Shown in pieces: positions 1-21,415 of a stretch of 21,415 bases of DNA. Made by a program: the position numbers and the translations under genes. The notes under the pieces were generated by a model. That model did no database searches, had not been told where the DNA came from, and was given only the letters and a program-made list of their open reading frames with translations. Numbering within the stretch: the stretch's first letter is position 1; the number at the start of each line of letters is the position of its first letter. Origin of the DNA: a virus; the IMG/VR virus record IMGVR_UViG_3300045120_000089, positions 1 to 21,415 of that record; one strand, given 5' to 3'.

Positions 1-177
1 GCGGGTGCGCAGACACGCTCGGGCGCGGGCGCGCGCCTTCGCCCCGGGGGGTGGCCGCGAGCGCCTTCGGCTCGCGTCCAGACGCACAGAGAAAATTCCT
101 CATCCCACAACTTTCGATGGGATACAGATCACACTCGCATCACACTTTTTGAGGGGCTGCGAAAGTGCGCCAGACAC

Positions 178-280
178 GGGGGCGCAGGGGTTCTACTGTG
201 CTCTCTTCTGGCGCTGGGGAAATAAAACCGGAATAGCGTGACCGCGTGACTGCGCCGGGAGCGGGGGCGCAGGGGTTCTA
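178..280. repeat. 18-bp direct repeat pair (178-195, 263-280)
   Basis: The 18-mer GGGGGCGCAGGGGTTCTA occurs exactly at 178-195 and 263-280, start-to-start distance 85 bp. After each copy the similarity continues imperfectly, with GCTCT followed by T-rich bases. The first copy directly abuts a CAGACAC motif at 171-177. Paired direct repeats in a leader fit operator sites, a terminase-recognition region or a local duplication; the sequence does not decide between these. Confidence 0.75.
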
Positions 281-297
281 AGGCGCTCTTTGCGCCT
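281..297 (+). other. Short perfect hairpin in the leader
   Basis: AGGCGC (281-286) and GCGCCT (292-297) pair perfectly around a 5-base TCTTT loop, immediately after the second direct repeat. No T tract follows, so it does not look like an intrinsic terminator. It overlaps the possible -35 element described at 290-318. Confidence 0.5.
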
Positions 298-318
298 CGT
301 GCGCGATGCGTGTATATA
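290..318 (+). promoter_or_regulatory. Weak sigma70-like promoter candidate
   Basis: TTGCGC (290-295) and TATATA (313-318) are separated by 17 bp and are the only sigma70-like pair I found in the leader. The -10 box matches 4 of 6 consensus bases and the -35 box about 3 of 6, so this is weak. If used, transcription would begin near 325. That would exclude the upstream GTG at 310 as a start for the tail-fibre gene and favour ATG 376. Confidence 0.25.
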
Positions 319-375
319 AAGCGTCAGCCGCTCATGGATCGCTCGGCATGGTCCGCTTGCTCGCAGAGCGCGTCA

Positions 376-1308
376 ATGCCGTTCCCGAAGCCGCCGGACA
401 AGATCGTCGCTTTCAATTCAGGCGCGGTCGCTCCTCATGACATCGGCCGTCAATTCGACGAGCACCGCCGGGCGGCGGGCGAAGTCATCAACTTCCTTCG
501 TACAATCGCGCGCGACGACGGGACCGTGAAGAACGGCTCGGTCGGACCCGAGCAGTTAGCGCCGGAACTCCCGGAGACGCTGGCAAAGACAGCGGTCAGC
601 GCGGTCGAAGGACTTTTAGCGCAGGTGCGCCAGAGCGCGGCGCTCGCGGCGCATCATGTCGTCGAAGCGCAGGCGTTGCGTGAAGAACTGGGCGCGCTCT
701 GGGCCGCCATGGCGCAGCAAGTGTCTGCGATGCAGACAGCGGCGAGCGAAGCGCGCGACGCGAGCGCCGAAGCCAGCATGCAAGTGGCCGCCGCGAAGGC
801 GCAGATCGAGGCGCTGTCCACGTCGCTGGCGACCGGACTGCTGGGCGTGGGGGCGGGAGGGTTCTACGGCGTCGATGCGCAGGGCGCCGGAGCGACGGCG
901 CAGGATTACGCGCAAGTAAGTATAGAGTGGGCCGAGCACATGCCCGACATCATTCCCCCGAATGTGTTGGCGATCAACGCGATCACTGGCGATCACTGGT
1001 CCTCGCGGTGGTGGGCGAACCGCGCTGCGGGGATCATCGCTTCGAGTGGCGGCGCCGTCGGTTCCGTGCCTGCCGGGCAGGGCGTGTTCTCCGAGCCGGT
1101 CGCCGTCACCGGCGCCAACGTGTGCGCGCCTCTCACCAAGACGCCGGCCGGCCCGGTTCTCTTGATCGTCAACGGGATCTCGTTTTTGCCCGTCGGAACC
1201 ACGCCGCCATTCACCATGTCGGGCAAAACCATCAACTGGTTTTCGTCGATCTACTCGCTCATTCCCGGACAGACCGAGGTTGCCGCTTGGTACCCATTCG
1301 CGCCATGA
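376..1308 (+). CDS. Tail fibre protein with central coiled coil
   Basis: Probable tail fibre or appendage protein, 310 residues from ATG 376. The N-terminus (PFPKPPDKIVAFNSG, then DDGTVKNGSVGPEQLAPEL) has the look of phage fibre attachment regions in alphaproteobacterial phages. Residues about 70-165 are Ala/Glu/Gln-rich heptads typical of a trimeric coiled coil. A segment reading AEHMPDIIPPNVLAINAITG, followed by DHWSSRWWANRA, leads into a beta-rich C-terminal tip ending WYPFAP. In-frame starts also exist at GTG 310 and ATG 334. I chose 376 because the fibre-like sequence begins there and the only promoter candidate lies between; no start has a good ribosome site. The stop overlaps the next ATG (ATGA). 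A CAGACAC motif (reverse) with a partial second arm lies at 721-738. The receptor is unknown. Confidence 0.75.
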   Translation: MPFPKPPDKIVAFNSGAVAPHDIGRQFDEHRRAAGEVINFLRTIARDDGTVKNGSVGPEQLAPELPETLAKTAVSAVEGLLAQVRQSAALAAHHVVEAQALREELGALWAAMAQQVSAMQTAASEARDASAEASMQVAAAKAQIEALSTSLATGLLGVGAGGFYGVDAQGAGATAQDYAQVSIEWAEHMPDIIPPNVLAINAITGDHWSSRWWANRAAGIIASSGGAVGSVPAGQGVFSEPVAVTGANVCAPLTKTPAGPVLLIVNGISFLPVGTTPPFTMSGKTINWFSSIYSLIPGQTEVAAWYPFAP

Positions 1309-4300
1309 AAAAAGCTCTCGCGTTCCTCGCGCTTTTGGCGTTGTCGTCGCCGGTGTCTGCGCAGACACAGCCGGCCCAAATGGGCATCACGCCTACGACG
1401 ACGCCCGAGGTTTTGCAGACCCTGGACAACACCCAGACCTGGGTTCCGCTGGGCACCGTCAACTCGACGACGCACAAGTTTTCGGTCGTTGGCGGCGGCG
1501 GCAATTCCTACACCGATCACGCCGCGTTGCTGGCTGCGATCACTGCTGCGCCATCGCCGCCGCAGCCCATATCGCAGCAGGGTTTTAGCGCGCCGGGCGA
1601 CGGCGGCGACGCTCTCTATCAGTGGAACGCGGCTTCCTACTGCCCGCTTGGGACATCGAGCGCGCCAGTCGCGGCGGATGGCGTCGTCTGCATCCTGCCG
1701 AGCGCTCAAAGCGCTTCGGTCGCCGGGCGGTATTTGTTGAGCAACGACGGCGCCGTCAACGTCCTGCAAGTGGGCATGAAACCAGGGGGGTTCGACAACT
1801 CTCCCTTGGTGCAGACGCTGATGAACGCCGTCAGCCCCGCCGGGTACACGTCGCCTGCGCCGGAGATCGTGTTTCCGCCGGCGTTGGGGCAGGCGACTAC
1901 GCAGTATTATTTCTCGCAACCGTTTGTGATCGCACGCGGTTCGCGCATCGACTGCCGTGGCGGTCTGAGCCTCGACAGCGCGGGGCCTGTCCAACTGATC
2001 TTTCCTCCCGGCGTGGACGGGCTCATTCAGGAATGGGGCTCCCTTGCGCCGGATTACGGGTTCGGGTTGAGCGACATCAATGGCTGTTCCATCGTGTCGC
2101 TCGGAGGAGGCGGCGCAGCGGGGGCGGTAAACGGTTCGGCGTCGCTGACAAGCGTGAATTTGCACAACCGATTGGCCGGCGCGCCTTTCACCATGCCTTC
2201 GAGCTGCAATCCGTCAGGCGGCGCATGCACGGTCGGCGTCAACGATGGGATCATCGCGATTTCGGGCTGGCAACCAGCCAATAATGACCTGGCGGTCAAC
2301 ACCGGGGCCTACGCCGTGGCGTCCGACCCGGTGGCGAAGACAATGACGCTTTCGACGCCGATCAAGAACATGGGTCTCTTTTCCGGGACGCCGGTGACGG
2401 GTGTGGTGATCTGGGATCTGCCGGCAAGCCAGAAATACTCGATCCGCACCATGCCGTCCTACGTCACCACGACTGCAACGTCGTCGGCCTACAACAGCAC
2501 GACCGGCGACCTGGCGCTGACTTTCGCCACTGCGCCGCTTGGCGCGAGCTATCCGGCAGATACTTGTTTCCAGTTGCAAGTCTACGGTTTCAGCGACACG
2601 GCAGGGACGGACTACCAGCAGCTGTCCGGTGTCTGGTATGTCAACAACATCACTTCGGCCGGAACCGTGATCCATCTCCAAGCTCCAAAGGGGCTGACGA
2701 TCACGTCTCTAAGCGGCGGCATCCTTTACTCAAACGCCATCGGGCTCGCCGGCAACGCCGTTTGCATGCTCTCGGGACCACGCTTGTTGAAGCCGGGCGA
2801 CATGATCTGGTCGGACGCTTTCCTGTTCGGGACGACCGTGACCCAGATGGTCAACCACGTTGCCGGAACGCCTACGGTCCACACCGGCGGTTCTGGATAT
2901 TCCGGGGCTTCCGGCACGATGACCTATAACGGCATTGCCTGCGACAACGGGCCTCCGGTGCTCAACGTGACGGCGTCGGGAGGCGTAATCACCGGCGTCA
3001 CCGGCGTCGCCAATCGCGGCAACTGCATTCGCTACTCGCCGCTGGCTGGCGACACGCATTGGACGGCCGGAGGAGGATTGAGCGGCGGTTCGGGCGCGAG
3101 CTTCGACATGACGTTCAACGAGATCGCCTACGTGAATTGCCTGGCTATCGAGAATTGCCCCGAGACGGCGTCGGTGATCTACCCGGTGGGTTCGGCGGCG
3201 GGCCAAATGTGGACGGTTCCGACGGGTATTATCAAGCGCACGCAGGGCAACACCCATAGCGGCAGTATTACCTATTTCGGCATCGGCATACGAGGTGACT
3301 GCGACCCCGGCACCAGTCCAGGCACTGGCTGCAACGCCAGTTTTGACCAGCAGAACACCATTAGCAACAGCCTGGTGGGACGGATGATGCGAGGCGGCAA
3401 TGCCGGCGTCAGCACGTCCATGCTTAACGTCTTCGCCTACAATTCCATCGTGGACGAGGTTGAGGCTGGGACCATCGGCAGCACCTACATCAGCGAGGAA
3501 TATAACAGCTTCGAGGACGGCAGCGCCTGGAACAGCTTCGTCGGCCTGTGCGGCACGCAAAATTACTCGACGATTTATGGGGCCTACATCACCAACATCG
3601 AGGGCGGTTACTGCATGGGGCTCAACGCCCACGGCTGGGCGACGCTTGTAACCCCGCCGCAACGGCAGAACCCCGGCAGCATGCTGTTCATCGGCAGCAT
3701 TTACGGCGGTCCAATGCCGTCGATAGGTCCGTCGTCGCAGATGGCTGGAAATTGGCGGTTTTCGGGTCAGTCAGACTATTCGATCCACGCAAATGCTGCG
3801 ACGGTTTCTGGTAATATTATTACTCTGGGCAATGTCCCCGCCATCACGGCGGGAATGACCGTCACCAATACGACCCACCCTTCGGTCATTCCTGCCAACA
3901 CGACGGTAAAAAGCTCATTTAGCGGTGGAGTGGTGTTATCGAACGCCGTCACCGGAGCGGGCGTGCAGAACGGCGACGTGATCAATTTTTATCGCGGCTA
4001 CGGCAATGGCTGCACCCAAATTAACGCCGGTCTGGACAACACTACCACACCTCTCGGGGTTTCCCTCGATTGCGTCAACTTCACCGGCATCAGCTATGAC
4101 GGTTATCTCAATGCTTGGTATTTCGGTTCGATAATCATGCCCTACGGACTATTTGCTCCCTACGCCGGATATAATGTTCCCAGCAATCCCCCAGTGCTTA
4201 AGGGCGGTCTTCTTCTGGGCGACAGCGACGGCGGAAACCCCGGCATCGAACGGCTGCTCGACATAGGTGATCAACCCCCTTCCTACGCCGCATGGCACGC

Positions 4301-4856: not shown

Positions 4857-5032
4857 TGACCCAGGTCGCCAGCGAAACGATTAGCGCGCTCAAAACGAGC
4901 CCGCTTTTGCTCGTCGTCGTGGTGCTGAACGCCGGAATGATTTTCGCCCTTCTTTACATCGCCAATGTCCAGCGCGACGAGCGGCAGACACTGACCAAAT
5001 ACGTTGTCGAGAATTGCGGGAGGGCTCCGTGA
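4856..5032 (+). CDS. Small one-TM holin-like protein
   Basis: A 58-residue protein starting at ATG 4856, inside the stop of the tailspike gene (TGATG), and ending in the GTGA overlap with the endolysin start. Residues 16-36 form one strongly hydrophobic helix (LLLVVVVLNAGMIFALLYIA). It is preceded by a short polar N-terminus and followed by a charged tail (QRDERQTLTKYVVENCGRAP). Size, topology and position directly before the endolysin suggest a holin or another small lysis membrane protein. I do not recognise a named family, and a spanin-type role is not excluded, although there is no lipobox. One CAGACAC motif lies in frame at 4985-4991. The gene is certain enough from the double coupling; the function is inferred from context. 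Confidence 0.75.
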   Translation: MTQVASETISALKTSPLLLVVVVLNAGMIFALLYIANVQRDERQTLTKYVVENCGRAP

Positions 5033-5505
5033 GCGAACGCATTCCTCCGTCTAAATTGTTTTTGTCACAGGCCGGAGTGGAAGTTCTGTCTGATCGCGAA
5101 GGGTGCGAACTCACCGCCTATCTCGATACTGTCGGCGTGCTCACAATCGGCATCGGTCATACAAGCAGCGCCGGGCCGCCCACGGTCTATCAGGGCATGA
5201 CGATCACCGAAGAGGCGGCGCATTCGATCTTTCGCTCCGATAACCGGCGTTTTCGCGCCGAGGCGCTGCCGCTGATCGAGGTTCCCTGTCACCAATACGA
5301 ATGGGACGCGCTGTGCAGCTTCCTGTTCAATCTTGGGACGACCCAATTCGCGGGTTCGACCGCGCTTGAACGGCTCAACGATGGGAACTACGCCGGAGTG
5401 CCGGAAGCGATGATGTGGTGGAACAAGCCGCCCGAGATCATCAGCCGGCGCAAAGGCGAAGCGCATCAGTTCGCGACTGGCGAATATATCGCGAGGATCG
5501 CGTGA
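5029..5505 (+). CDS. Endolysin, GH24 (T4-type) lysozyme
   Basis: A 158-residue muramidase predicted to cleave the MurNAc-GlcNAc bond of peptidoglycan at the end of infection. The GH24 signature is clear: Glu24 in REGCELTAY, Asp33 in YLDTVG and Thr39 in TIGIGHT. Their spacing (9 then 6) equals the catalytic Glu11-Asp20-Thr26 of T4 lysozyme. The later segment WDALCSFLFNLGTTQF matches the conserved helical lobe, and RRKGEAHQFATGEY the C-terminal motif. The start is GTG 5029 with GGGAGG a few bases upstream and a GTGA overlap with the holin-like gene. A TTG at 5014 is a weaker alternative. There is no signal peptide or signal-anchor, so export would depend on a holin. Length is normal for the family. 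It sits between tail genes, so lysis and adsorption genes are interleaved. Confidence 0.93.
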   Translation: MSERIPPSKLFLSQAGVEVLSDREGCELTAYLDTVGVLTIGIGHTSSAGPPTVYQGMTITEEAAHSIFRSDNRRFRAEALPLIEVPCHQYEWDALCSFLFNLGTTQFAGSTALERLNDGNYAGVPEAMMWWNKPPEIISRRKGEAHQFATGEYIARIA

Positions 5506-6605
5506 GAACCCGTGCTTGCGCCCTTTTGTTTGCGCTTCTCGTGTCTGCGACGCCGGCATTCGCCGTCGCCACCACGAAATACGCGCTCACCAATTCTGGC
5601 TGGACTGATCTCGGCGCCGGCCCGATGCTGTTGTCGTTTCAGGGGTCGGGCGTCTTCGCCGTCGGCGATACGACGCCGACCCTGGTCAACGAGGGGTTCG
5701 GCATCAGGGCGGGCCGCAGTTTCCCCATCAAGACGACTTCGCACGTGTGGGCAAAGGCGCCGGGAGCGTTTAGCGTCAACGCCTATGTCGCGCCGATCAG
5801 CGCCGGGGGCGGCGGGCCTTTAAGCTGCGCGCAGGCGACGACCCATCTCGCCCGTACTGTAGGGAACAACGAGGGGGGCAACGCAGTAAATATTTCGAAC
5901 TTGATTTGTGGTTTGGTAGTGGATGGGGTGATTGACGGTGATCTCTCACCTATTGTTTCTGGCAAACCTGCCGGTAAAACCCTGCCAGGATGTGGATCGC
6001 ACTTAGACACGCTTTATGTGTATGCGCAGCAAAATGGCATTGATGCGATGCTCAATATTTGTGGGACGAACTATACCGGAGGTAATGCCGGCACTGTTGC
6101 ATTTACCAGTTATGTCGGACTGAACGGGTACAACCTAGGCGGTATTACTTATTCAAATTTTAACCCAACAACCGCCACAAGTCCACATTTCACGTTAAAC
6201 AACGGAAGCTTTGGTGTATGGGCGTATGACGCTTTCTCTGATCCTAAGCCTCAAATGGGAAACGGGAATACTTATCTATATGACAATGCTCCTAACTTTT
6301 ATCCTAGAGTAAATGATAGCAACCCTGCGAATGTCACTACGACAATAACCAAAGGCCTATTCGTCGCAGAACGAAGAGACGCGGCTAACGTATATGGCTA
6401 CCAAAACGGTGTTTCCAGCGCTGCGATGGCAGCGGCATCGACTGGAGTGACCAATGATATGTTTTATATTGGCGGAATAAACGGGGTAGCCTATACAGCG
6501 CAGACACTCAGTGAAGTCCATATTGGCGGCGCGCTCGGCGACACGCTGAACCTCGCTCTCTACAATCGCCTTCGCACGTACATGACCGCGGTCGGAGTTC
6601 CCTGA
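5502..6605 (+). CDS. Fibre-like protein: signal peptide, repeat domain, AT-rich binding module
   Basis: A 367-residue protein starting at GTG 5502 in a GTGA overlap with the endolysin. Residues 1-21 (ending SATPAFA) are a Sec-type signal peptide. Residues about 22-105 form a beta-rich domain with WTDLGAGPML, AVGDTTPT and TSHVW motifs; it is closely related to the whole of the next gene. From about residue 120 the protein changes to a Gly/Asn/Thr/Tyr-rich C-terminal module, ending LYNRLRTYMTAVGVP, that looks like a concanavalin/LamG-type sugar-binding tip of phage fibres. The DNA changes with it: I counted 70% GC in 5641-5700 but 47% in 6181-6240 and 42% in 6301-6360. This suggests a separately acquired receptor-binding domain. 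The role as adsorption protein is inferred; no enzyme motif is seen. Confidence 0.75.
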   Translation: MRTRACALLFALLVSATPAFAVATTKYALTNSGWTDLGAGPMLLSFQGSGVFAVGDTTPTLVNEGFGIRAGRSFPIKTTSHVWAKAPGAFSVNAYVAPISAGGGGPLSCAQATTHLARTVGNNEGGNAVNISNLICGLVVDGVIDGDLSPIVSGKPAGKTLPGCGSHLDTLYVYAQQNGIDAMLNICGTNYTGGNAGTVAFTSYVGLNGYNLGGITYSNFNPTTATSPHFTLNNGSFGVWAYDAFSDPKPQMGNGNTYLYDNAPNFYPRVNDSNPANVTTTITKGLFVAERRDAANVYGYQNGVSSAAMAAASTGVTNDMFYIGGINGVAYTAQTLSEVHIGGALGDTLNLALYNRLRTYMTAVGVP

Positions 6606-6904: not shown

Positions 6905-6916
6905 GGAGGTTCAATC

Positions 6917-7366: not shown

Positions 7367-7798
7367 ATGGCCGTTGGAGAAAAGAGCGCCCAGTCCTACG
7401 GCTGGGGAACGACGCTTAAGCAGCCGGTGCCAAGCGGCGACGGGGTGGAGATCCCGGCGCCGGGCTTCGATCACCGTTACACAGACACCAAGCACGTCGA
7501 TGTGACTGTTCCCGGAGGCCGGGTGTACCGCGCCGGCGGCGAGGGTGTGCCCGGCGTCGATGTGCTCTTCAACAACGCGGGTTCACACGAACTCCCGGTG
7601 TCTGTCACCGTCAGCAACAACACTCAGGAGGAATGGCCCCTGGGAGGCTCGATCTACGTGTTCGCGCCCCACCTTTTGTCGGCCGGGGCCAACGAATGGG
7701 ACGTGAAAGAGCAGATTTACGATCTCCAGCAGCGCGTCAAGGCTCTGGAGGACGCAACCCTGCAAGAAACCCAAAAACACGAGCCCGAAGCCGAGTGA
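7367..7798 (+). CDS. Hypothetical protein with C-terminal coiled coil
   Basis: A 143-residue protein with GGAGAG at 7354-7359, 7 bases before ATG 7367. Residues about 20-105 are beta-prone with many Gly and Pro (for example HVDVTVPGGRVYRAGG, VSVTVSNN and GSIYVFAP), resembling a small beta-sandwich. Residues about 112-132 (VKEQIYDLQQRVKALED) form a short coiled coil, and the tail is acidic. The stop overlaps the GTG start of the terminase (GTGA). Its position is where a small terminase subunit often lies, but I see no helix-turn-helix and the beta-rich body does not fit one. A virion decoration or fibre-linked protein is equally possible. Family not recognised. Confidence 0.75.
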   Translation: MAVGEKSAQSYGWGTTLKQPVPSGDGVEIPAPGFDHRYTDTKHVDVTVPGGRVYRAGGEGVPGVDVLFNNAGSHELPVSVTVSNNTQEEWPLGGSIYVFAPHLLSAGANEWDVKEQIYDLQQRVKALEDATLQETQKHEPEAE

Positions 7799-9363
7799 AC
7801 GACCAAAGTGAACTCAAACAGCTCTTATTGCGCCGGAAAGCGATCTTTTCGGCGCGCGACGACCTGATTGCGTTCGCCCGTTTCATGATGCCGGTGCCTG
7901 ACACGCCCGACGACGTTAACTTCTCGCTATATCGGCCCGCCAAGCACCACCGAGTGCTCGGCGCAGCCCTCGAAAAGGTCGAAAAAGGTGAGTTTTCGCG
8001 GCTTCAAATCACTCTTCCGCCGCGTCATGGGAAGACCAAGCTTGCGTCGCACCTATTCGCAGCTTGGTTTGCTGGCCGGAACCCCGAAAAGTCGATCATC
8101 GTCGCGACTTACAGCGAAAAATTCGCCTGGGACCATGGGAGAGCCGTCCGGGACATCATCGAAAACCCGCTTTTTCAGCAAGTTTTCCCCAATACGCGCC
8201 TTAAACCGGGCTCGGCGTCGATGGACCGGCTCGAAACCGAGCAGGGGGGCGTCCTCTTCTTCCTAGGGCGGGGTTCCGGAGCGACCGGGCGCGGCGCTGA
8301 CGTGATTTTGCTCGACGACCCGACCAAAGATCGAAAAGAAGCAGACAGTCCGACGATACGCGAGCAACTTTGGTCCTGGTACACCCAGGTCTTGCAGACA
8401 CGCCTGATGACCAAAGAAGGCCGCATCGTGATCATCCAGACACGGTGGCACGAAGACGATCTCATAGGCCGGCTCACAGATCCTACAAACCCGTGTTATT
8501 CCGTGAGCGAAGCGCAGAAATGGCGGGTGATCGACATGCCGGCGATTGCGCGCGAGAAAGACGTTCTCGGCCGCAAAGTGGGCGAGGCGTTGTGGCCGGA
8601 GCGCTTCGACCGCGACTATCTCGACAGTCTCCGGGAAACCGACATCAGAGGGTTTCAGGCGCTTTACCAGGGGCGCCCGACGCCCGAAGAGGGCTCTTTC
8701 TTCAAGGCGGTGTCGCTGCGCACCTACGTCAAGATGCGCGACATGCCGGGCAAGGAGCGGCTTCGCTATTACGGGGCCTCGGATCACGCGGTTTCGCTCG
8801 AACAGGGCCGCGACAAGACTTGCCTGATGATCATCGGTGTCGATGAGCGCGATGACATTTGGGTGCAACCCGACCTGTTCTGGCAGCAGGCAGACACCGC
8901 GACGGTGGTCGAGAACATGGTCCAGATGATGGACAAGTACCAGCCTTTATTCTGGTGGGCAGAAAAAGGGCACATTTCGAAGAGCATCGGCCCCTTCCTG
9001 CGCAAGCGCATGCTGGAGAAGCGGGTGTTCTGCACCATCGACGAAATCACGCCCATCGGCGACAAGCAGACACGCGCCCAATCGATGCAGGCGCGCATGA
9101 CGATGGGCAAGGTGGTTTTCCCCGGTTTCACCCGCTGGTGGGCGGAAGCCCACGACCAGATGCTCAAGTTTCCGCAGGGCGCGCACGACGACTTCGTCGA
9201 TACGCTTTCGCTCTTTGGCTATGGCCTGTATCGTCAGCGCGGCCAGCGCGCAGCGCCGAAAGAGAGTAAGACGCCGAAAATGCTCACTTACGGCTGGGTG
9301 ATCGAAGACGCCGCGCGCGAGCGTAAGAAAGAGCGTTCGCACATGACGGTCGGAGGCTGGTGA
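7795..9363 (+). CDS. terL: Terminase large subunit (packaging ATPase/nuclease)
   Basis: A 522-residue DNA-packaging motor. The N-terminal ATPase has a Walker A-like loop PPRHGKT (residues 75-81), a Walker B strand VILLDD (170-175), and the coupling segment IIQTRWHEDD (about 213-222). The C-terminal RNase H-like nuclease shows a first acidic strand with Asp330 (YYGASDHAV) and a terminal Asp pair (465-466, in HDDFVDTLSLF). Length is normal. The start GTG 7795 overlaps the previous stop; the open frame extends upstream to 7633, but only as a shadow. The protein packages DNA into the prohead through the portal encoded just downstream. Four CAGACAC motifs fall inside this gene, one of them within the coupling-segment codons. 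No small subunit is recognisable in the window. Confidence 0.95.
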   Translation: MNDQSELKQLLLRRKAIFSARDDLIAFARFMMPVPDTPDDVNFSLYRPAKHHRVLGAALEKVEKGEFSRLQITLPPRHGKTKLASHLFAAWFAGRNPEKSIIVATYSEKFAWDHGRAVRDIIENPLFQQVFPNTRLKPGSASMDRLETEQGGVLFFLGRGSGATGRGADVILLDDPTKDRKEADSPTIREQLWSWYTQVLQTRLMTKEGRIVIIQTRWHEDDLIGRLTDPTNPCYSVSEAQKWRVIDMPAIAREKDVLGRKVGEALWPERFDRDYLDSLRETDIRGFQALYQGRPTPEEGSFFKAVSLRTYVKMRDMPGKERLRYYGASDHAVSLEQGRDKTCLMIIGVDERDDIWVQPDLFWQQADTATVVENMVQMMDKYQPLFWWAEKGHISKSIGPFLRKRMLEKRVFCTIDEITPIGDKQTRAQSMQARMTMGKVVFPGFTRWWAEAHDQMLKFPQGAHDDFVDTLSLFGYGLYRQRGQRAAPKESKTPKMLTYGWVIEDAARERKKERSHMTVGGW

Positions 9364-11802: not shown

Positions 11803-11803
11803 T

Positions 11804-11851
11804 CCCGTGTCTGCGCGTATTGGTCACAGGCACGGGCAGACACGCCCCGTG
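11804..11851. other. Inverted repeats of the CAGACAC motif between portal and scaffold
   Basis: CGTGTCTGC (11806-11814) and GCAGACACG (11836-11844) are perfect 9-bp inverted arms with a 21-base loop. CACGGG (11831-11836) can also pair with CCCGTG at 11846-11851 (9-base loop holding the motif) or with CCCGTG at 11804-11809. The arms are mutually exclusive. No T tract follows, so this is not a standard intrinsic terminator. It fills most of the 63-base gap before the scaffold gene and ends just at its ribosome site. Confidence 0.75.
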
Positions 11852-11865: not shown

Positions 11866-12912
11866 ATGGCAGAGAGTTCGTCGCCTGCCGAACCCGGCCC
11901 AGAGAGCTTGCACGACGCGGCGGAAGCCGCATCGCACGAACCCTCTTCGGCCAAATCCGACGTAACCGCCTCCCCGTCAGAGGCTGAGAAGAGCGATAGT
12001 AAAGAGACGCTTCTCGAAGCGGTGCTCAAGGCGGTCAAGCCCGCCGACGACGCCGACGAGGAAGCGCCTGCCGGGACTTCGCCACCCTCGGAGAGCGCCA
12101 CCAGTCCAGCCGACGCCAAGAGCGAAGGGGACAAGGCCGATCTAACCAAAGACCCGACTGCCGAAGAGCTTGCGGCGTTCAACAAACGGACCCGCGACCG
12201 CGTCGAGCAGTTGATTGGACAGCGCAACTCTTATCGCGCCGAAGCCGAGGTTACGCAGACACTCCGGAATTTTCTCGTCACGAATGACATCGCGCGAGAA
12301 GATTTCCAGTTGACGCTCGACCTGGCCGCCGCGATGCGCAGGGGCGACTTCAAGGCGTTTTTGGAAGGTGTCGGACCCTATGTCCAACTCGCTACCCAGG
12401 CGTTGGGGGTAACGCTTCCGCCGGATCTCCAGAACGAAGTCCAGCAGCAGCGTTTGACGTTCGACGCGGCAGCGCAGATGTCGCGCGACAGGTATGCGAG
12501 AGCCTTGGCCGAGCAGCGCGCGACCCGCGCCACGCAAGTCCTCAACACTCACGAAACCTCAGCGCAACAGCAGCATTTGTCCCGCACCATCGAGAACACG
12601 GTTTCTCAGTGGGAAGCGGGCATCCGTCAGACCGACCCGGACTATGGGCGCAAGGAAGAAACCGTTCGGCAACTTCTTTGGTCCGTCGTTCAGGAGCAGG
12701 GCGCGCCCCGCTCCCCCGAACACGCCGTCGAGATCGCGAAAGAGGCTTACGCCCGGGCAAACCGGACGCTTTCTGCTTTCGCGCCCCAACGTCAACCGAC
12801 CCGAGCCGTTCCGAGCAGCGTCAACAACCGCGCCGCGTCGGGCGCACGCTCGGAACCGCGCTCCATGATGGAAGCGGCTGAACTCGGGCTTGCGCGCGCT
12901 CGCGGGGCTTAA
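11866..12912 (+). CDS. Scaffolding protein
   Basis: A 348-residue, largely helical protein placed between portal and major capsid genes, the standard place for an internal scaffold that guides prohead assembly and then leaves. Residues 1-95 are Ser/Pro/Ala/Asp/Glu-rich and disordered. Residues about 100-300 are helical with Gln-rich stretches (DLQNEVQQQRLTFDAAAQM, QQQHLSRTIENTV). The C-terminus is basic and Ser/Arg-rich (APQRQPTRAVPSSVNNRAAS), as in scaffolds that dock onto coat protein. No protease gene is seen nearby, as expected for a P22-like scaffold. GGAGA at 11851-11855 precedes ATG 11866. I assign the role by context and composition rather than by a signature. Confidence 0.8.
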   Translation: MAESSSPAEPGPESLHDAAEAASHEPSSAKSDVTASPSEAEKSDSKETLLEAVLKAVKPADDADEEAPAGTSPPSESATSPADAKSEGDKADLTKDPTAEELAAFNKRTRDRVEQLIGQRNSYRAEAEVTQTLRNFLVTNDIAREDFQLTLDLAAAMRRGDFKAFLEGVGPYVQLATQALGVTLPPDLQNEVQQQRLTFDAAAQMSRDRYARALAEQRATRATQVLNTHETSAQQQHLSRTIENTVSQWEAGIRQTDPDYGRKEETVRQLLWSVVQEQGAPRSPEHAVEIAKEAYARANRTLSAFAPQRQPTRAVPSSVNNRAASGARSEPRSMMEAAELGLARARGA

Positions 12913-14049: not shown

Positions 14050-14178
14050 AGGTATCGTGTCTGCGCGTTCGCTTCGGTGTCCCTTGGCGAGTTGGCCATA
14101 GTTGCAGGGGTAACTCTCCAGTCGTAAGGCCGGAGAGCTATGTCGCCGGGCGGGCGCGGTCATTCAGGAGGTTCGGAT
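14050..14178 (+). other. Gap after the capsid gene with a hairpin and a motif copy
   Basis: This 129-base gap, one of the longest in the block, has a reverse CAGACAC motif at 14057-14063. It also has an inverted repeat CTCTCC (14114-14119) / GGAGAG (14132-14137) with a 12-base loop. No T tract follows, so it is at most a Rho-dependent or mRNA-processing or stability element after the highly expressed capsid gene. The ribosome site AGGAGG at 14166-14171 belongs to the next gene. Confidence 0.45.
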
Positions 14179-14402: not shown

Positions 14403-15032
14403 ATGACTTCCAAAGATAACCACAAGCCCCCCGCTCCCCCGGTGCGAGACATGCCCGGCCAGAAGCACCCGCCGTCACCAAGCGCCGCGCAGCCGCCGCG
14501 CCCGCCGTCGCCCCCGCCCCCGCCCCCGCCGCGCCCCGGAACTCCCCCGCCGCCGCCCCCGCGTCCCGCCGCATCCGGCGCCCCGCGTGACCCCGTGCTG
14601 GGGACAGTCGATCCGTTAAAGCGCGAGACCGAGACGCTTCCGGTGCAGGCGCATCCCGGCCCCGACCGGGGAGAGCCCGTCGGCCACGCCCGGCATGCCG
14701 AGACACCGGAAGAAGTCGAGAAGATCTCGGCGATGGAAGGCTTCGGTTCCGACGAAAGGAAGGTTCCGCCTCCCGGCTCGCGCCACTTTGTCGCCGGGCA
14801 ACCCGTGGACGACGAAGAGTGGGAGAAGACCGAGAACGAAGCCAACCGCCTCGCCGATGCGGGCCGCGCGCAGCGCACCGAAGCCGAGAAGCGATTGGCC
14901 GCGAACAACCCGGGCGATCCCGATTATCATCCGGTTGACCCCGATCACCGCGATCCGCAGGCCGGGGGCAAGCGCGCAGACACCAATCCTGATCCTCATC
15001 GCCCCGAGGACGAGGACAAACACAAAAGGTAA
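14403..15032 (+). CDS. Proline-rich, charged disordered protein
   Basis: A 209-residue protein with AGGAGA at 14391-14396 before ATG 14403; an upstream in-frame start at 14382 would run over that site. Residues about 15-65 consist mainly of Pro, with runs of seven and six (SPPPPPPPRPGTPPPPPPRP). The rest is highly charged, with Glu/Asp/Lys/Arg and a C-terminal part full of DP, HP and RPED units (for example DYHPVDPDHRDPQ). No fold or family is evident; it is probably disordered throughout. Such proteins can be capsid accessory, linker or assembly factors. The low-complexity G+C of the proline run also gives long open frames on the other strand, which I regard as shadows. Confidence 0.75.
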   Translation: MTSKDNHKPPAPPVRDMPGQKHPPSPSAAQPPRPPSPPPPPPPRPGTPPPPPPRPAASGAPRDPVLGTVDPLKRETETLPVQAHPGPDRGEPVGHARHAETPEEVEKISAMEGFGSDERKVPPPGSRHFVAGQPVDDEEWEKTENEANRLADAGRAQRTEAEKRLAANNPGDPDYHPVDPDHRDPQAGGKRADTNPDPHRPEDEDKHKR

Positions 15033-15035
15033 GCA

Positions 15036-15443: not shown

Positions 15444-15452
15444 GAGGAAAGA

Positions 15453-15736: not shown

Positions 15737-15748
15737 GAGGGTTCAGCG

Positions 15749-16516
15749 ATGGCGCCGCGCTCGATGGAAGTCGGGGTTCTGTTGAGCGAACTCCGACGCC
15801 GGCTCTTGGCTGAGACTTTTCAGTCGCTCAATCCCAATCAGACGACTTCGTCCACACCCTTCTACAACTACCAGCTTGATCGCGTGCAGCGCGAGCAGTG
15901 GAACGACATCGAGTGGCCGCACCTGACGATCTACAAAGACGTACCGATGGTGATTGGCCAGCGATACTACGATTACCCGCCCCAGTTGCCCTTCGACAGC
16001 ATCTTCCGGATCTGGTGGCCACAGGGCGTGACCTGGGTGCCTTTGGACTACGGGATCAACCCTCAGACCTACGCGACGATGGGCGGTGAGCTGATCCAGG
16101 CGTGGCCGCCCCGGCGCTGGCGCAACGTTGCGCTCTTCGACGAAACTTCGGGCCAGACACAGCCGGCGGCGCAATTCGAGGTTTGGCCCATCCCAGGCCC
16201 GACGCTACCCTTCTCTCTTCGCATCGAGGGCAACGCGCCGCTGAACTCGTTGGTCGAGGACACCGACGTATGCGTGATCGACGCGACACTCATTGTGTTG
16301 TTTGCAGCGGCTGAGATCCTGGCGATGCAAAAGAGCGAGAGCGCGTCGCTTAAGCTCCAGAAGGCGAACCAATATCGCCGCATGCTGATCGCGCGCCTCG
16401 GGGCGCAGCAACGCTCGATGAAGTCGTTGAGCAAGGACGGCGGTCACATAGGCCCGCTCGCCGATGGTCGCCGGCTCGTACCCTACCTCGACTTCATTCC
16501 TGCCTACGGATCGTAA
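15749..16516 (+). CDS. Head-tail adaptor protein
   Basis: A 255-residue protein preceded by a strong AGGAGG. It is probably the adaptor (connector) that sits under the portal and receives the tail nozzle, as gp4 does in P22 and the adaptor does in SU10-like phages. Features are an N-terminal helix VLLSELRRRLLAE, QLDRVQREQWNDIEWPHL, a beta-rich middle with YYDYPPQLPFDSIFRIWW, QFEVWPIPG, and a final helix bundle (LAMQKSESASLKLQKANQYR). These fit the SU10-type adaptor family as I know it. Unlike P22 gp4, no separate lysozyme activity is suggested. It lies directly before the nozzle-like gene. A T7 gp11-type relation is the main alternative. Confidence 0.72.
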   Translation: MAPRSMEVGVLLSELRRRLLAETFQSLNPNQTTSSTPFYNYQLDRVQREQWNDIEWPHLTIYKDVPMVIGQRYYDYPPQLPFDSIFRIWWPQGVTWVPLDYGINPQTYATMGGELIQAWPPRRWRNVALFDETSGQTQPAAQFEVWPIPGPTLPFSLRIEGNAPLNSLVEDTDVCVIDATLIVLFAAAEILAMQKSESASLKLQKANQYRRMLIARLGAQQRSMKSLSKDGGHIGPLADGRRLVPYLDFIPAYGS

Positions 16517-16519
16517 GGC

Positions 16520-18304
16520 ATGGCGGCGTCGCAGAAGCAGGGGGGCGGCGGGGGTTCGCTCTACTACGAAATCGCGAACTTCCAGGCCGGCATGGACCTG
16601 CGCAAGAGCGAACTCACGGCGCCGGCAGGCACGCTGCGCTTGCTACAGAACGCCCACATCACCCAAGGGGGCGAGATCGAGAAGCGCGCGAAGTTCGACT
16701 TATGGTGCAACGCACCGGCGGGTTCGATAGGCATCTGCGCCGTTGACGACAAGGTCTACACCCACGTTTTTAGCGGCACTCCCGGCGTAATCGACGAGCC
16801 GACAGACACGACGATTGGCGTCATTCACATCGCACCGCCAATCGGCAGCATCGTGCTCGCCGGGGCCAACATCACCGACGGGATCACTGACCCGCCCATC
16901 GCAGGCACGGTTTTGTATATCGCTGATCTCACGACCTACGACGGAAGCTCCACCACGATCACTGTCGGCATGAAGGTCAACGGGACGGGCGTGGCGGAAG
17001 GCACGGTGATCACGTCCGACATTGACGGCGGCGGCGGCCCCGGCAATTATTACGTCAACAACTCTCAGCTCTCGTATCCAAGCTCGCTCGACGGCCACCC
17101 GACCGGCGAGACGCCGATCTACCAGCTTTGTTACGACATCTTCAACGGCCGGGTGTTCGCGGTCTTCGGCGGCCCGACCACCAACTCCTACGCCTATTAT
17201 GATGGCGTGCAGGCGACCGAAGCCAACGGCACGCCCGGCTCGGAGGGCGGCAACGGCCAGATGCTGTTCGTCCGCACCTACAAAGAAAAAATGTACGCGC
17301 TGGTGAACCGCCAGTTGGTGTTCAGTTCGGTCGGCGACCCGACGATCTGGTACGATCCTGGCCCCGATGTTGACGGCAACATCGCCCACAACGGCACGGG
17401 GTTCATCGATGTCGGCACCAACGACGCCGACAGCCAGTTGCTGCTGTCGATGGAAGTCTACTACGACAAGATGGCGATCTTCTCGCGCTTGTCGTGCCAG
17501 TTGTGGTTTCTCGATCCTGATCCGAGCCTGAACCAGTATTTCCAGACCCTGCGCGACGCAGGCACCATCGCCCCGACCAGCGTGCGCCAGTACGTCGCCA
17601 ACGATGTCTACTTCCTGGGAACGCACGGGATCAGGTCGCTCCGGGCGCGCGACCTGACGACGACCGCAGCAGTCGCCGATGTCGGCTCGCCCATCGACGC
17701 GCCGGTTCAGGATCTGATCGCCACCGACGGGCCGTTCGAGCTGAACAACATCCTTTATTGGACGAGATCGGTGCTCGACGCCCGCACCGGGCGGTTCTGG
17801 ATCGCGTCCAAAAACACGATTTATATTCTGTCGAACTGGGCTTCGCCCAACATCTCGGCGTGGAGCGTCTACATCCCCGAGTTCACTATCGACAACCAGC
17901 ACATATTGTTCTCGGACCCCTATGTCGTCATTCGCACCACCACCGGCGCGATCATGCGCTTCGGCTCTTCCGGCGCGCTGGCATACGACAGTTGCCCGGT
18001 CCAGTTCACCACGCCTTTTCTCAGTTTCGACAAGCCGGCGACCTTCAAGTTCTACCAGGGGTTTGACGCCATCTGCTCGAACGTCCCGGGCTCGGTGTGG
18101 AGCGTGAAGGCGAGCTTCGACCCGACCCGAACCCCCACCCCTTTTGATCAGATTTGCACGCTCGACGGGCCGAGCATCATGGACGGAAAGATCCCGATCA
18201 GCGGCCGGGGAACCCACGTCATGATCGATGTCACCCACGCGGCGCCGGGACCGGCGACGTTCTCGAAATTGTTCATCCACTACGCACCGAGTGATACAAG
18301 CTGA
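16520..18304 (+). CDS. Tail nozzle-like protein (gp10-type beta-propeller)
   Basis: A 594-residue protein following the adaptor, in the position of P22 gp10 or the SU10-like nozzle that closes the portal channel. The N-terminus NFQAGMDLRKSELTAPAGTL and RLLQNAHITQGGEIEKRAKF is like nozzle proteins that begin by wrapping around the adaptor. The body is strand-rich with repeated aromatic-Gly patterns (GRVFAVFGG, QMLFVRTYKEKMYALVNRQL, TIWYDPGP, QLWFLDPDPSLNQYF), consistent with a beta-propeller. Residues about 108-192 form an apparent inserted Thr/Gly/Val-rich domain (MKVNGTGVAEGTVITSD). The start follows the adaptor stop by 3 bases. The stop overlaps the next ATG. Family membership is judged by pattern and order, not by a signature residue. 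Confidence 0.72.
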   Translation: MAASQKQGGGGGSLYYEIANFQAGMDLRKSELTAPAGTLRLLQNAHITQGGEIEKRAKFDLWCNAPAGSIGICAVDDKVYTHVFSGTPGVIDEPTDTTIGVIHIAPPIGSIVLAGANITDGITDPPIAGTVLYIADLTTYDGSSTTITVGMKVNGTGVAEGTVITSDIDGGGGPGNYYVNNSQLSYPSSLDGHPTGETPIYQLCYDIFNGRVFAVFGGPTTNSYAYYDGVQATEANGTPGSEGGNGQMLFVRTYKEKMYALVNRQLVFSSVGDPTIWYDPGPDVDGNIAHNGTGFIDVGTNDADSQLLLSMEVYYDKMAIFSRLSCQLWFLDPDPSLNQYFQTLRDAGTIAPTSVRQYVANDVYFLGTHGIRSLRARDLTTTAAVADVGSPIDAPVQDLIATDGPFELNNILYWTRSVLDARTGRFWIASKNTIYILSNWASPNISAWSVYIPEFTIDNQHILFSDPYVVIRTTTGAIMRFGSSGALAYDSCPVQFTTPFLSFDKPATFKFYQGFDAICSNVPGSVWSVKASFDPTRTPTPFDQICTLDGPSIMDGKIPISGRGTHVMIDVTHAAPGPATFSKLFIHYAPSDTS

Positions 18305-18567
18305 TGACAGACGACATTGAGCGCCGCCTCGAACGGCTGGAAGAAAACTTCAACTCCATTCGGCTGTCGCTCGACCGGATAGAGCGTAATCTTTTCGAGA
18401 CGCGAGACGCCGTTGTCAGAATTCAACGCCAAATCGCCCGTTCTGTCGCGCCCGTCGCGCAAGACGCGCCCGACGGCACGCTGGCGATCCGCGATCCGGA
18501 CATACTCCTTCAGCAACAGCGCACGCAGACACGGGGCTATTCCCGGCCTATCCCCCGAAGACCTTGA
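18304..18567 (+). CDS. Coiled-coil protein, possibly frameshifted into the next ORF
   Basis: An 87-residue ORF starting inside the nozzle stop (TGATG). Residues 3-45 form a strong coiled coil with heptads (RRLERLEENFNSIRLSLDRI, then RNLFETRDAVVRIQRQI). The rest is polar and ends abruptly in RPIPRRP. The stop is TGA followed by C, preceded by CCT, and a run of five C lies at 18552-18556. Downstream, the +1 frame is clearly protein-like, see the ORF ending at 18691. A fusion would give a protein of about 128 residues. I cannot tell a programmed +1 shift from a sequence error or two real genes. Confidence 0.7.
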   Translation: MTDDIERRLERLEENFNSIRLSLDRIERNLFETRDAVVRIQRQIARSVAPVAQDAPDGTLAIRDPDILLQQQRTQTRGYSRPIPRRP

Positions 18568-18691
18568 CGCGCTGTGGCGGCCTTATCCGAAATTCATCGG
18601 GCCAGTGGCGCCGCTGATGTGGATGTGGCTGTACGACCAGGAGAAACAGCGGGACTGGCGCATCGCGATGAATTTAGGACCGGCGCCGTGA
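18413..18691 (+). CDS. Trp-rich ORF overlapping the coiled-coil gene, start uncertain
   Basis: This frame is open from a TTG at 18413 to the stop at 18691. Only its last third looks like protein: SPEDLDALWRPYPKFIGPVA, then PLMWMWLYDQEKQRDWRIAM. The first 45 codons are Arg/Ser-rich and read as the shadow of the coiled-coil gene. The only later in-frame start is GTG 18605, which would give just 28 residues and cut the conserved-looking part. The best explanation is that this is the C-terminal part of the coiled-coil gene, reached by a +1 shift near 18552-18567. The stop overlaps the next GTG (GTGA), which supports translation up to this point. Confidence 0.45.
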   Translation: MSEFNAKSPVLSRPSRKTRPTARWRSAIRTYSFSNSARRHGAIPGLSPEDLDALWRPYPKFIGPVAPLMWMWLYDQEKQRDWRIAMNLGPAP

Positions 18692-19188
18692 GCAAAGTCA
18701 CGGGCATGACACCCGACCCTTTGCAGCATGTTCTCTTCAATTTACGCCCCGAAGACCGGGCCGAGATCGAAGCCGTGCGGGGCGTGGGTTTTGACGCGAT
18801 CCGGATGTCGCTCGAACTGTGCGCGCTGGCAAAAACGGGCGAGGGCTGGATCTTCTGGCGCACAGACACCGGCGAGCCCGCCGCCGTGCTCGGCGCCTAC
18901 GCCATGACGCCGGCTGTCGCCGGGTGCTGGGCGTTCGGCACCCCGGGCTGGCCGCGCGTCGTCAAGGGCGTGACAAGGCATATCCGAAGCGTTATGGTGC
19001 CGGCGCTCCTCCAGGGAGGGTTCCACCGCGCCGAGTGCCGGGCTCTGGCCAATCGCCAGGACACCAAGCTCTGGCTCACTTCCCTGGGGTGGAGAGCAGA
19101 AGCCGTTTTGTCGGAATTCGGCATCCGACGTGAAGATTTTATTCTCTTCGCGTGGGTCGCCGATGAACAAGCGGATCTCTTTAGATAG
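18688..19188 (+). CDS. T7 gp13-like internal virion protein / GNAT-like
   Basis: A 166-residue protein starting at GTG 18688, with TAGGA at 18675-18679 and a GTGA overlap. The order of motifs (LRPEDRAEIEAVRGVG, then GWIFWRTDTGEPAAVLGAYA, WPRVVKGVTRHIRSVMVPAL, then FHRAECRALANRQDTKLWL, and the end RREDFILFAW) resembles the DUF2833/T7 gp13 internal virion group. These proteins have a degenerate acetyltransferase-like fold and are needed for virion assembly in T7. The expected acetyl-CoA loop is not clear, so activity is doubtful. The gene sits at the start of the presumed ejection-protein cluster and overlaps the following GNAT gene by 26 bases. Confidence 0.72.
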   Translation: MSKVTGMTPDPLQHVLFNLRPEDRAEIEAVRGVGFDAIRMSLELCALAKTGEGWIFWRTDTGEPAAVLGAYAMTPAVAGCWAFGTPGWPRVVKGVTRHIRSVMVPALLQGGFHRAECRALANRQDTKLWLTSLGWRAEAVLSEFGIRREDFILFAWVADEQADLFR

Positions 19189-19654
19189 TCTTGACGAATA
19201 CGTCGCCTTCCGGTTCGCCGACGCCAACGACGTTCCCGAACTGATCGAGCTTTACCTTCGCTTCTACGACGAAGCGATCTACCAAGATTTCCTTGAGTTC
19301 GATCCCGCACGCGCCCGCGCCACGATCCTCAACGGCATTGTCACAGACACCCGCCCGCACATCGTCGCCGAATTCGATGGACGGATCGAAGGGTTCATTT
19401 CTTACATCTTCGATCACACTTTTTCAGTGCGCCCCTGCCAGGTGCTGATGGAGTTCTACGTCGCTCCCGAACTCCGTCTGAGCCCGATTGGCCGAGCTTT
19501 GCTGGCGATGGCGGTGCAAGAAGGCAAAGCCGCCGACGCCGGCGCTTTTCATGCGCCTGTCGCCTCGGGCATGCGCGCCGCGCGCTCACTCGCCAATCTA
19601 TTCGAGAAAGCCGGGTTCCACCCAATGGGCTTCATAATGCGGAAAGGCTTCTGA
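19163..19654 (+). CDS. GNAT-family N-acetyltransferase-like protein
   Basis: A 163-residue protein overlapping the previous gene by 26 bases. The first part (YVAFRFADANDVPELIELYL, residues 13-32) is the usual GNAT beginning of strand and helix. FDGRIEGFISYIF fits strands 2-3. EFYVAPELRLSPIGRALLAM (residues 97-116) fits strand 4 and the acetyl-CoA helix, although the loop reads RLSPIGRA instead of the usual Q/R-x-x-G-x-G/A. The C-terminus NLFEKAGFHPMGFIMRK is typical of GNAT strand 6-7. A real acetyltransferase fold is likely; its substrate and whether it is catalytic are unknown. Two GNAT-like genes side by side within virion genes suggests a structural reuse of the fold. Confidence 0.75.
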   Translation: MNKRISLDSLDEYVAFRFADANDVPELIELYLRFYDEAIYQDFLEFDPARARATILNGIVTDTRPHIVAEFDGRIEGFISYIFDHTFSVRPCQVLMEFYVAPELRLSPIGRALLAMAVQEGKAADAGAFHAPVASGMRAARSLANLFEKAGFHPMGFIMRKGF

Positions 19655-19655
19655 C

Positions 19656-20645
19656 GTGGGAGGCAAGGGAGCAAGCGGACCGCAGTCGGACAACCAGCAA
19701 ATTGTCCAGATGCAGATGCAGCAGGCGGCGCAGGCCAAGGCCGCCAACGAGCAACGCAACGCCCGGCTCAGTTATGGCTCCAACCTGATCAAGAGCATGT
19801 TCGAAGGCTCGCCGGCGGGCTCGACGCTGCTCGACTTGTCGAGCATCACCAGCGGCGGCGTTCCCAAAGCGACTTCGACCGGCGCGACCAATCCGGTCAT
19901 GGCGCAATGGCTGGCGCAGAACCCGACCTATGACCAGTCGCAGTTGACCCAGCAAGGCCGCGCGTCGCTGCCAGGCGGGTATTCCTGGGGCGTTCTGCCA
20001 GACACCGGCTCGGGGACGACATATGGGATCTACGACCCGTCGGGCAACCTCCTCACGTCTTCGTCGTCGCTCTCGGATCTCGCCGCGTCGAAGATCTATT
20101 CCGGCGGCGACCCGAACTCGCGGGTCGGCGGGTTCGGCGACGCTTTCTACGACAAATACCGTAAATCGATCATGGACTACTACATGCCGCAAGAAGGCGA
20201 GCAGTATAACACAGCGCGGTCGAACTTAACCTATGGGCTCGCCCGCGCCGGCACGCTCCGGAGTTCCATCGCCGGCCAGGATGTCGCCAAGCTCGCCAAT
20301 CAGGACACGATCAACCGGGCGAACATCGCCTCCCAGGCAGACACCCAGACCGGCGCCCTGCGCTCGACCATCCAGCAGGACGAAGAAGCCGCGCTCAACC
20401 AGCTCTACTCGACCGAAGACCCGTCGGTCGCGGCGAACACCGCCGGCAACATGGTCGCCAACGCCCAGCTTACCAAGCCTTTGTTGAACCCGGCGGGGGC
20501 GCTATTCGCGCCGCTCACCGTGGGCGTCGGCAACGCGCTCTCCGGGTTCCTCAATCCAACCGCCTACATCAATCCTGGCGCCGGCGGCGGCTCGGCGACG
20601 ACGCCGAGCGGTTCGGTGAGCACCGGCATTAATCAACAGGGATAA
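19656..20645 (+). CDS. Probable internal virion (ejection) protein
   Basis: A 329-residue protein starting at GTG 19656, one base after the GNAT stop; GAAAGG at 19642-19647 could serve as ribosome site. The N-terminus is Gln/Ala-rich and helical (NQQIVQMQMQQAAQAKAANE). The middle has Gly/Ser-rich, strand-like parts (SYGSNLIKSMFEG, PGGYSWGVLPDTGSG). The region from residue 165 on is helical and Gln/Asn/Ala-rich (YYMPQEGEQYNTARSNLTYG). The end is Gly/Pro-rich. This composition, without a membrane helix, is common in podovirus ejection proteins that leave the virion with the DNA. I identify no enzyme motif. The role is inferred from the position after the gp13-like gene. Confidence 0.65.
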   Translation: MGGKGASGPQSDNQQIVQMQMQQAAQAKAANEQRNARLSYGSNLIKSMFEGSPAGSTLLDLSSITSGGVPKATSTGATNPVMAQWLAQNPTYDQSQLTQQGRASLPGGYSWGVLPDTGSGTTYGIYDPSGNLLTSSSSLSDLAASKIYSGGDPNSRVGGFGDAFYDKYRKSIMDYYMPQEGEQYNTARSNLTYGLARAGTLRSSIAGQDVAKLANQDTINRANIASQADTQTGALRSTIQQDEEAALNQLYSTEDPSVAANTAGNMVANAQLTKPLLNPAGALFAPLTVGVGNALSGFLNPTAYINPGAGGGSATTPSGSVSTGINQQG

Positions 20646-20651
20646 AACACC

Positions 20652-21415
20652 TTGTGCGATCCGATCAGTTTGGTCTCGCTCGCCGGCGCGGCAATCTCTG
20701 CCGGCGCCGGGATGTACGAGAGTTCGCAGGCGGCGTCGGCGATGGCGGCGACCAACCGCGCCCAGAACGACGCCAACAACGCCTGGATCGCCTACCAGAA
20801 GCAGATCCACGACCAGCAAGCCCTGGCCGAGCAGCAGGCGCGCGAAAAGGCGACTTCGGCGCAGCAGAGCACCCTGAACAAGATCTCGCCGGAAGCGCAA
20901 GCCAACACCCAGACGACCGAGCAGCAGCGGCTGAACTCGCTCTACAACAAAGCCGGGGGCAGCGCTCCCGGCGGCTCCGGCGGCGCGAGCGTGCTGCTGT
21001 CGGGCGAGAACACCGGCAACCAATCAACGATCAACAGCATCACGTCGCAGGTCAATCAGGCGACATCCCAGGCGCGCCAGCGCATCGCCGCGCTGGCGAC
21101 GGCCGGCTCCTACGGGGGTTCGTTCGGGGGCCTCGGGACCACGGTGCCTATCGAGCTTGCCCGGGGCGGCAACGCGATCAATCTCCAGAACGCCATCCGC
21201 CAGGGTGATCTCAAGACTTATGGCGTCGAGCAGCAGGTGCAGCCGGTCCAGTACACCCTCGGGCCAGGCACCGGGCAGCAGGCCCAGCTTGGCAAAGCCC
21301 TGGGGAGCCTGGCGGGGTCGCTCGCCGGAATTGGAGGGCCGAGGGCGTTCGGCGACGTGACCGGGTCCGTGGCGGCAGACACCAGTGCTATTCCGGGAGG
21401 CGGCGGTTTGACCTG
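20652..21415 (+). CDS. Probable internal virion protein, partial at window end
   Basis: A gene that is open to the end of the window, at least 254 residues, starting at TTG 20652, 6 bases after the previous stop. The start reads MCDPISLVSLAGAAISAGAG, a Cys-Asp-Pro plus small-hydrophobic helix pattern seen at the beginning of T7-like internal virion proteins. A long Gln/Ala-rich helical region follows (YQKQIHDQQALAEQQAREKA), then Ser/Gly/Gln-rich sequence (SQVNQATSQARQRIAALATA). CAGGGA about 11 bases upstream is a weak ribosome site. A competing frame starting at GTG 20654 is Arg-rich and a shadow. The true length and any C-terminal enzymatic domain, such as a transglycosylase, lie outside the window. 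Confidence 0.7.
   Translation, partial: MCDPISLVSLAGAAISAGAGMYESSQAASAMAATNRAQNDANNAWIAYQKQIHDQQALAEQQAREKATSAQQSTLNKISPEAQANTQTTEQQRLNSLYNKAGGSAPGGSGGASVLLSGENTGNQSTINSITSQVNQATSQARQRIAALATAGSYGGSFGGLGTTVPIELARGGNAINLQNAIRQGDLKTYGVEQQVQPVQYTLGPGTGQQAQLGKALGSLAGSLAGIGGPRAFGDVTGSVAADTSAIPGGGGLT

Follow-up and report, generated by a model that had tools for sequence, protein, structure and literature searches.

The 21,415-nt stretch analysed here (the window; positions 1 to 21,415 of IMG/VR virus record IMGVR_UViG_3300045120_000089) is a phage fragment that carries terminase, portal, capsid, endolysin and tail-region genes, all of them on the + strand, has a GC content of 62% and has no primase gene aboard. 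Strewn across it is the heptamer CAGACAC, the subject of this analysis, with 22 copies on the + strand and 8 in the reverse-complement spelling GTGTCTG that start between positions 10 and 21376 (Table 1). This exact count agrees with an earlier reading made from the sequence alone (the sequence-only reading), which had reported the same 30 copies and considered several explanations for them, the site of a primase not being one.

The over-representation of CAGACAC is real because all controls fall far below what is observed. A second-order Markov model predicts 2.2 copies (Poisson P ~1e-23), in line with the two to three given by the sequence-only reading, and Markov-1 simulations of the window gave a mean of 2.0 and a maximum of 6. 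Heptamers of the same composition (n=140) average 3.6 copies, so that there is no crowd of equally frequent words, and the runner-up AGACACC (15 copies) overlaps CAGACAC itself. When synonymous codons were shuffled within each gene, the largest total among 400 shuffles was 7, with none reaching 20, against 24 coding copies in the window (18 sense and 6 antisense; shuffle means 2.06 and 0.71); this leaves an enrichment of 8.7-fold in sense and 8.5-fold in antisense, or ~8.6-fold both ways. Coding copies occupy two of the three reading frames, as had been noticed before, and the earlier view that protein or codon selection does not explain them holds. An artefact of composition or codon usage, conceivable for a GC-rich window with all genes on one strand, is thus excluded by these controls with near certainty, and relatives of equal composition moreover have different words.

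The excess of + copies is true as a count but carries no functional meaning. The ratio of 22:8 fits the 2.06:0.71 that proteins and codons allow (P = 0.84) and the run of nine + copies at the window's end has a P of ~0.07, so that no polarity is to be inferred and the strand bias is a by-product of coding rather than a property of the site. A functional bias is rejected, with coding accounting for the ratio and enrichment equal on both strands.

The word is sharply defined, with nearly every single substitution of CAGACAC/GTGTCTG at background level; the one-mismatch neighbour CAGACAG, whose scarcity the sequence-only reading had pointed out, has 2+1 copies in the window. Inside the window the base preceding CAGACAC is never T. 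In a pool of 17 same-class sequences, A follows GTGTCTG at 9 of 422 sites, whereas other TCTGN contexts predict 79 and synonymous shuffles have A at 9% of sites. Since A is avoided, the recognised word is 8 nt long, GTGTCTGB (B, not A). One relative, G001, also shows an elevated GTGCCTG (25 vs 3.8), as if its specificity were intermediate. Type III or BREX-like methylation sites typically take the form of asymmetric 7-mers such as CAGACAC, which could speak for a DNA modification site, restriction decoy or defence-related signal; a modification or restriction-related site had been among the earlier candidates. Restriction, however, predicts depletion where we see enrichment, and no PF01555 or PF00145 methyltransferase was found in the window, its relatives or Sinorhizobium phage phiM5 (nine records), with two models that match most control genomes; we consider this explanation very improbable.

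Table 1. Copies of the motif and the non-coding region at the start of the window (window coordinates)
Feature	Position	Strand	Context
CAGACAC	10..16	+	intergenic, upstream of structural operon
CAGACAC	171..177	+	intergenic
GTGTCTG	721..727	-	template reading on + strand
GTGTCTG	1353..1359	-	palindromic pair with copy at 1362
CAGACAC	1362..1368	+	palindromic pair with copy at 1353
GTGTCTG	2629..2635	-	
CAGACAC	4985..4991	+	gap preceding endolysin gene
GTGTCTG	5541..5547	-	
CAGACAC	6501..6507	+	
CAGACAC	7482..7488	+	
GTGTCTG	7598..7604	-	
CAGACAC	8395..8401	+	terL; codon position shared by 7 sequences
CAGACAC	8437..8443	+	terL; conserved in 7 sequences
CAGACAC	8891..8897	+	terL; conserved in 5 sequences
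CAGACAC	9067..9073	+	terL; conserved in 8 sequences
GTGTCTG	10673..10679	-	portal gene; conserved in 6 sequences
CAGACAC	11303..11309	+	portal gene
GTGTCTG	11807..11813	-	intergenic
CAGACAC	11837..11843	+	intergenic
CAGACAC	12256..12262	+	
GTGTCTG	14057..14063	-	directly past capsid gene
CAGACAC	14977..14983	+	
CAGACAC	16154..16160	+	
CAGACAC	16803..16809	+	
CAGACAC	18526..18532	+	
CAGACAC	18863..18869	+	
CAGACAC	19344..19350	+	
CAGACAC	19999..20005	+	
CAGACAC	20338..20344	+	
CAGACAC	21376..21382	+	
Non-coding region upstream of structural operon	1..309		counterpart of the motif-cluster divergent intergenic region in G001, G004 and G007 (origin-like)

Relatives gathered by terminase homology (75-84% identity) spell the word in different ways. 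GTGTCTG heads the list of enriched heptamers in L001-L007 and L012, and the short L013 also has it in excess. Two relatives as close to the window as these carriers (L008/L009) have GTGTCT[C/T] (GTGTCTY) as their enriched word and GTGTCTG at background, and in L010, L011, L017 and L076, which are equally close, it is GTGCCT[G/C] (GTGCCTS). Comparing copy positions between related phages, as the sequence-only reading had proposed, we found terL and portal sites conserved in 5-8 sequences. At three positions of the terL alignment the site appears in spellings of two classes, e.g., CAGACAC in L003/L004/L006 and GAGGCAC in L010/L011; this points to a rewriting of individual sites from one class spelling to another. 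Further out, a prophage-like locus in a Devosia metagenome-assembled genome (L238; terminase 50% identical) has CGTGTCC / CCGGACA up 4-5 fold, possibly another GTGTCC spelling; an A1-type primase was not found in that Devosia genome.

Such switching could track hosts, as would fit a Chi-like signal that protects the phage from a host AddAB/RecBCD nuclease and that the sequence-only reading had listed. Known Chi words are 5-8 nt long, differ between hosts and, in the genome of their host, are over-represented and show polarity. CAGACAC shows no polarity beyond coding, however, and across 10 genomes harbouring terminase relatives its counts match those of the reversed control (73 vs 78 over 4.2 Mb, for example), though the true host may be none of these; we therefore think Chi-like protection improbable.

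The word extends over whole genomes in complete or near-complete contigs, with 70 copies in 48.2 kb (G001), 65 in 48.8 kb (G004) and ~74 in 44.4 kb (G006). Mean gaps between sites are 620-740 bp in the relatives' genomes and most copies lie inside genes. Local clusters occur as an eight-copy array with a 14-bp period in G004 (record 26437-26541, in L085), a triple with a 7-bp period in G001 and a six-copy cluster in G007, all of them intergenic and near divergent operons. The array of G004 sits between early operons where we see no convincing gene and possibly represents origin iterons. We equate the non-coding start of the window with this cluster region because the gene after the divergent intergenic region in G004 and G001 has its homologue in the window at 310. 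The same non-coding stretch of the window contains a perfect 16-bp direct repeat, GGGCGCAGGGGTTCTA, at 180-195 and 265-280, upstream of the structural operon, and its core GCGCAGGGGTTC is likewise paired at the same place in G001 (5376, 5468); this resembles a pair of late-promoter or regulatory elements. A second two-strand enriched word, GGGGTTC, was seen in G004 (63 vs 13; L084-L086) and L100 (23 vs 6) and is weaker in the window (18 copies).

The replication genes of the relatives encode DNA polymerase A (PolA), an Enc34-type single-stranded DNA-binding protein (SSB), a DUF2800 nuclease-like protein, an SNF2 helicase and a primase whose protein matches Prim-Pol, PriCT_2 and PF19263 (DUF5906). 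Further contigs were collected by homology to the primase or polymerase, and their word class was then read. GTGTCTG recurs in seven of them (primases 48-67% identical), GTGCCTG in L205-L207 (35-42%), GTGACAG in L106 (29%) and ATGACTAT in L111-L114 (33%). Phage phiM5 of S. meliloti shares with G001 only primase, PolA, SSB, DUF2800 and SNF2 and has no structural homologue; this cultured phage (L143/L144) has TGACAG 169 times vs 30 expected and the TGACA core 384 times vs 100 expected in 40 kb, the strongest enrichment seen. Since contigs found by replication homology carry matching classes and phiM5 shares this module alone, the word travels with the replication module. In L016, PolA and an AEP (archaeo-eukaryotic primase)/helix-bundle protein are kept, followed by a RepA/RecA-like ATPase in place of PF19263, and the enriched word is GAGCCC (149 vs 35). 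The pattern NTGNCW, spotted post hoc, fits most lineages and not L016, L064 and P106B. A search of viral contigs for additional lineages with phiM5, L106 and A5 as queries yielded nothing new.

These data bear directly on the idea that a structural or nucleoid protein reads the word as a packaging, condensation or partition signal; presence all over the genome on both strands would agree with this. Between phages that use different words, TerL and portal share 75-80% identity, and phiM5 has the replication module and nothing structural in common with the clade, both of which argue against such a signal and make it improbable. What had been suggested of a protein recognition site is probably right in general, while its packaging or uptake version is improbable for a motif that follows replication genes rather than structural ones.

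Several further phages showed enriched words of their own. Two-strand words were seen in Microcystis phage Mae-Yong1326-1 (L161/L162), the L064 record (L191/L192), Rhizobium phage P106B (L159/L160) and phiC31 (L177/L178), listed together as TGTCCT 106 vs 19, CCCTGG 82 vs 22, CCTGGA 64 vs 10, CCCAGG 94 vs 15 and GTGAGTAG 25 vs 1. BcepNazgul (L137/L138) and Erythrobacter phage R22L (L155/L156) repeat AAGTTACTT / AAGTAACTT-type words mainly on one strand, and these are probably regulatory.

Within the replication module, the primase is the likely reader of the word. The AEP and helix-bundle part of the G004 protein (residues 1-400), modelled with AlphaFold (AF2), has a predicted local distance difference test score (pLDDT) of 85 and shows a catalytic domain adjoined by a helix-bundle domain (helices 239-340, pLDDT ~90). 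Its only significant Foldseek matches in the PDB, the best of them two-domain AEP-helix-bundle structures, are the pRN1 primase (E 3e-7) and, with four structures (E ~5e-6 to 2e-5), the NrS-1 primase-polymerase, and the helicase part matches NrS-1 in a hidden Markov model comparison (E 5e-14). The catalytic motifs VDNDQG and GxHP (DxD, xxH) are conserved in the primases of the relatives. The pRN1 primase needs 5'-GTG-3' in the template, which is bound by the helix bundle, and starts synthesis with a dinucleotide opposite the two bases on the 5' side of GTG (PMC8076596); sites of the NrS-1 enzyme (NrSPol) are 5'-GTG(A/G)-3' and the 8-nt 5'-TTTGGTTA (PMC8718748). In both enzymes the helix bundle contacts the motif and primers begin immediately 5' of the template GTG.

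On the would-be template strand, each word class of the window's clade starts with GTG. Because of this, and because the pRN1 and NrS-1 primases use such sites, we favour, with a probability of roughly 0.62, the reading that CAGACAC/GTGTCTG(B) marks dispersed priming sites of the phage's own AEP primase-polymerase and co-evolves with it. The phage of the window would then carry the same primase as its relatives. The complement 5'-GTGTCTG(B)-3' would be the single-strand template recognition site, present on both strands and read by a protein composed of AEP domain, helix-bundle domain and PF19263 helicase. In this protein, the helix bundle would grip the motif with its GTG, and the AEP domain would join the first two nucleotides opposite the bases immediately 5' of the motif. 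The resulting primers would presumably serve Okazaki fragments and origin firing, selection would maintain one site per ~0.6-0.7 kb, and the spelling of the sites would drift together with the replication module.

The main rival holds that another protein of the same module (SSB, PolA, the RecB-like DUF2800 nuclease or the SNF2 helicase) reads the site, for instance as a phage Chi-like recombination signal or as an initiator or iteron site. These proteins are common to the clade and phiM5 and co-segregate with the motif class just as the primase does, and the tandem arrays near divergent operons also speak for this rival. Most copies sit in genes away from any origin, however, and AEP-helix-bundle primases do read such words, while we know of no SSB, PolA, DUF2800 or SNF2 family that reads a word of 7-8 nt. 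On balance, we see this alternative as unlikely, though well ahead of all others. One helix-bundle column discriminates the classes (F286; F in all GTGTCTG primases and H/H/Q/A in others), but as a locator of specificity it is no more than a lead, as other replication genes have as many such columns.

Apart from this co-segregation, several observations weigh against priming by the AEP primase. The helix bundle diverges between motif classes no more than the co-segregating replication genes do, and among the contigs examined we found neither phylogenetic discordance between primase and PolA nor a clean primase-only recombinant. The AEP sequence match itself (Prim-Pol/PriCT_2) is weak and near the Pfam cut-off. 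In the NrS-1 genome, its own known sites are not enriched (TTTGGTTA 1 vs 2). GTG is present in the template words of the GTGTCTG, GTGTCTY, GTGCCTS and GTGACAG classes and absent from ATGACTAT, TGACAG, TGTCCT and GAGCCC, and in L111, phiM5, Mae-Yong, L016 and L064 the word starts with other letters. Neither regular spacing nor lagging-strand polarity of the sites was seen in the relatives' genomes; gaps are close to random with some extra close pairs, and a regular Okazaki ruler is rejected on these grounds. Finally, no clear motif was apparent in several phages with PF19263 primases (StenoS1, L213-L225 and others), so that such a primase does not by rule imply an enriched word and enrichment is a property of some lineages and not of the whole family.

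If the words are priming sites, genome sequences would directly reveal primase specificity in many phages simultaneously, and comparison of the classes would make specificity residues of the helix bundle testable. Primase recognition is usually viewed as nearly degenerate (~3 nt) and measured enzyme by enzyme. It is about an even bet that these phages have a private priming code of 7-8 letters, on both strands and mostly in genes, that is rewritten site by site as the specificity of the primase-polymerase drifts (GTGTCTG to GTGTCTY to GTGCCTG), with genome and replication module co-evolving as a matched pair that would limit module swapping. Such matching, if true, would restrict phage mosaicism in a way not recognised so far. 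That AEP primases have template words was known before, and the new element would be a version that is enriched genome-wide, spans 8 nt and switches class, with a putative role in priming; in the literature that we searched, nothing was found on primase sites with such genome-wide enrichment and class switching.

Other genes of these phages deserve brief mention. L081 (543-4262) encodes a conserved protein with a VWA domain (CobT-like) that has homologues in G004, G006 and G007, and a MoxR/CbbQ-like AAA ATPase gene adjoins that of the VWA-domain protein in G001, G004 and G006. Within the structural operon of the window, 19130-19654 encodes an acetyltransferase-like protein (PHROG 1249) that is conserved in G001, G006, G007 and G009.

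Among known systems, the Chi sites of RecBCD/AddAB are likewise short, over-represented and lineage-specific words, but they are host-owned and polar, whereas CAGACAC is linked to the phage, non-polar and unenriched in genomes carrying terminase relatives. The template words of T7 gp4 (5'-GTC) and the trinucleotide sites of bacterial DnaG are dispersed as well and set the start sites of Okazaki fragments, though these enzymes are TOPRIM primases of an unrelated family and the relatives' primase is of the AEP type; a comparable enriched two-strand word was not found in T7, phiKMV or lambda. NrSPol is, like the relatives' primase, a phage enzyme with AEP domain, helix bundle and PF19263 helicase, with matches in both sequence and fold and a known 8-nt site, and differs in the lack of enrichment described above. 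The primase ORF904 of the Sulfolobus plasmid pRN1 shares the AEP and helix-bundle fold, and the template motif of the clade also starts with the GTG that it recognises; GTG suffices for pRN1, however, while in the clade 7-8 nt are specified, enriched genome-wide and spelled in a lineage-specific way.

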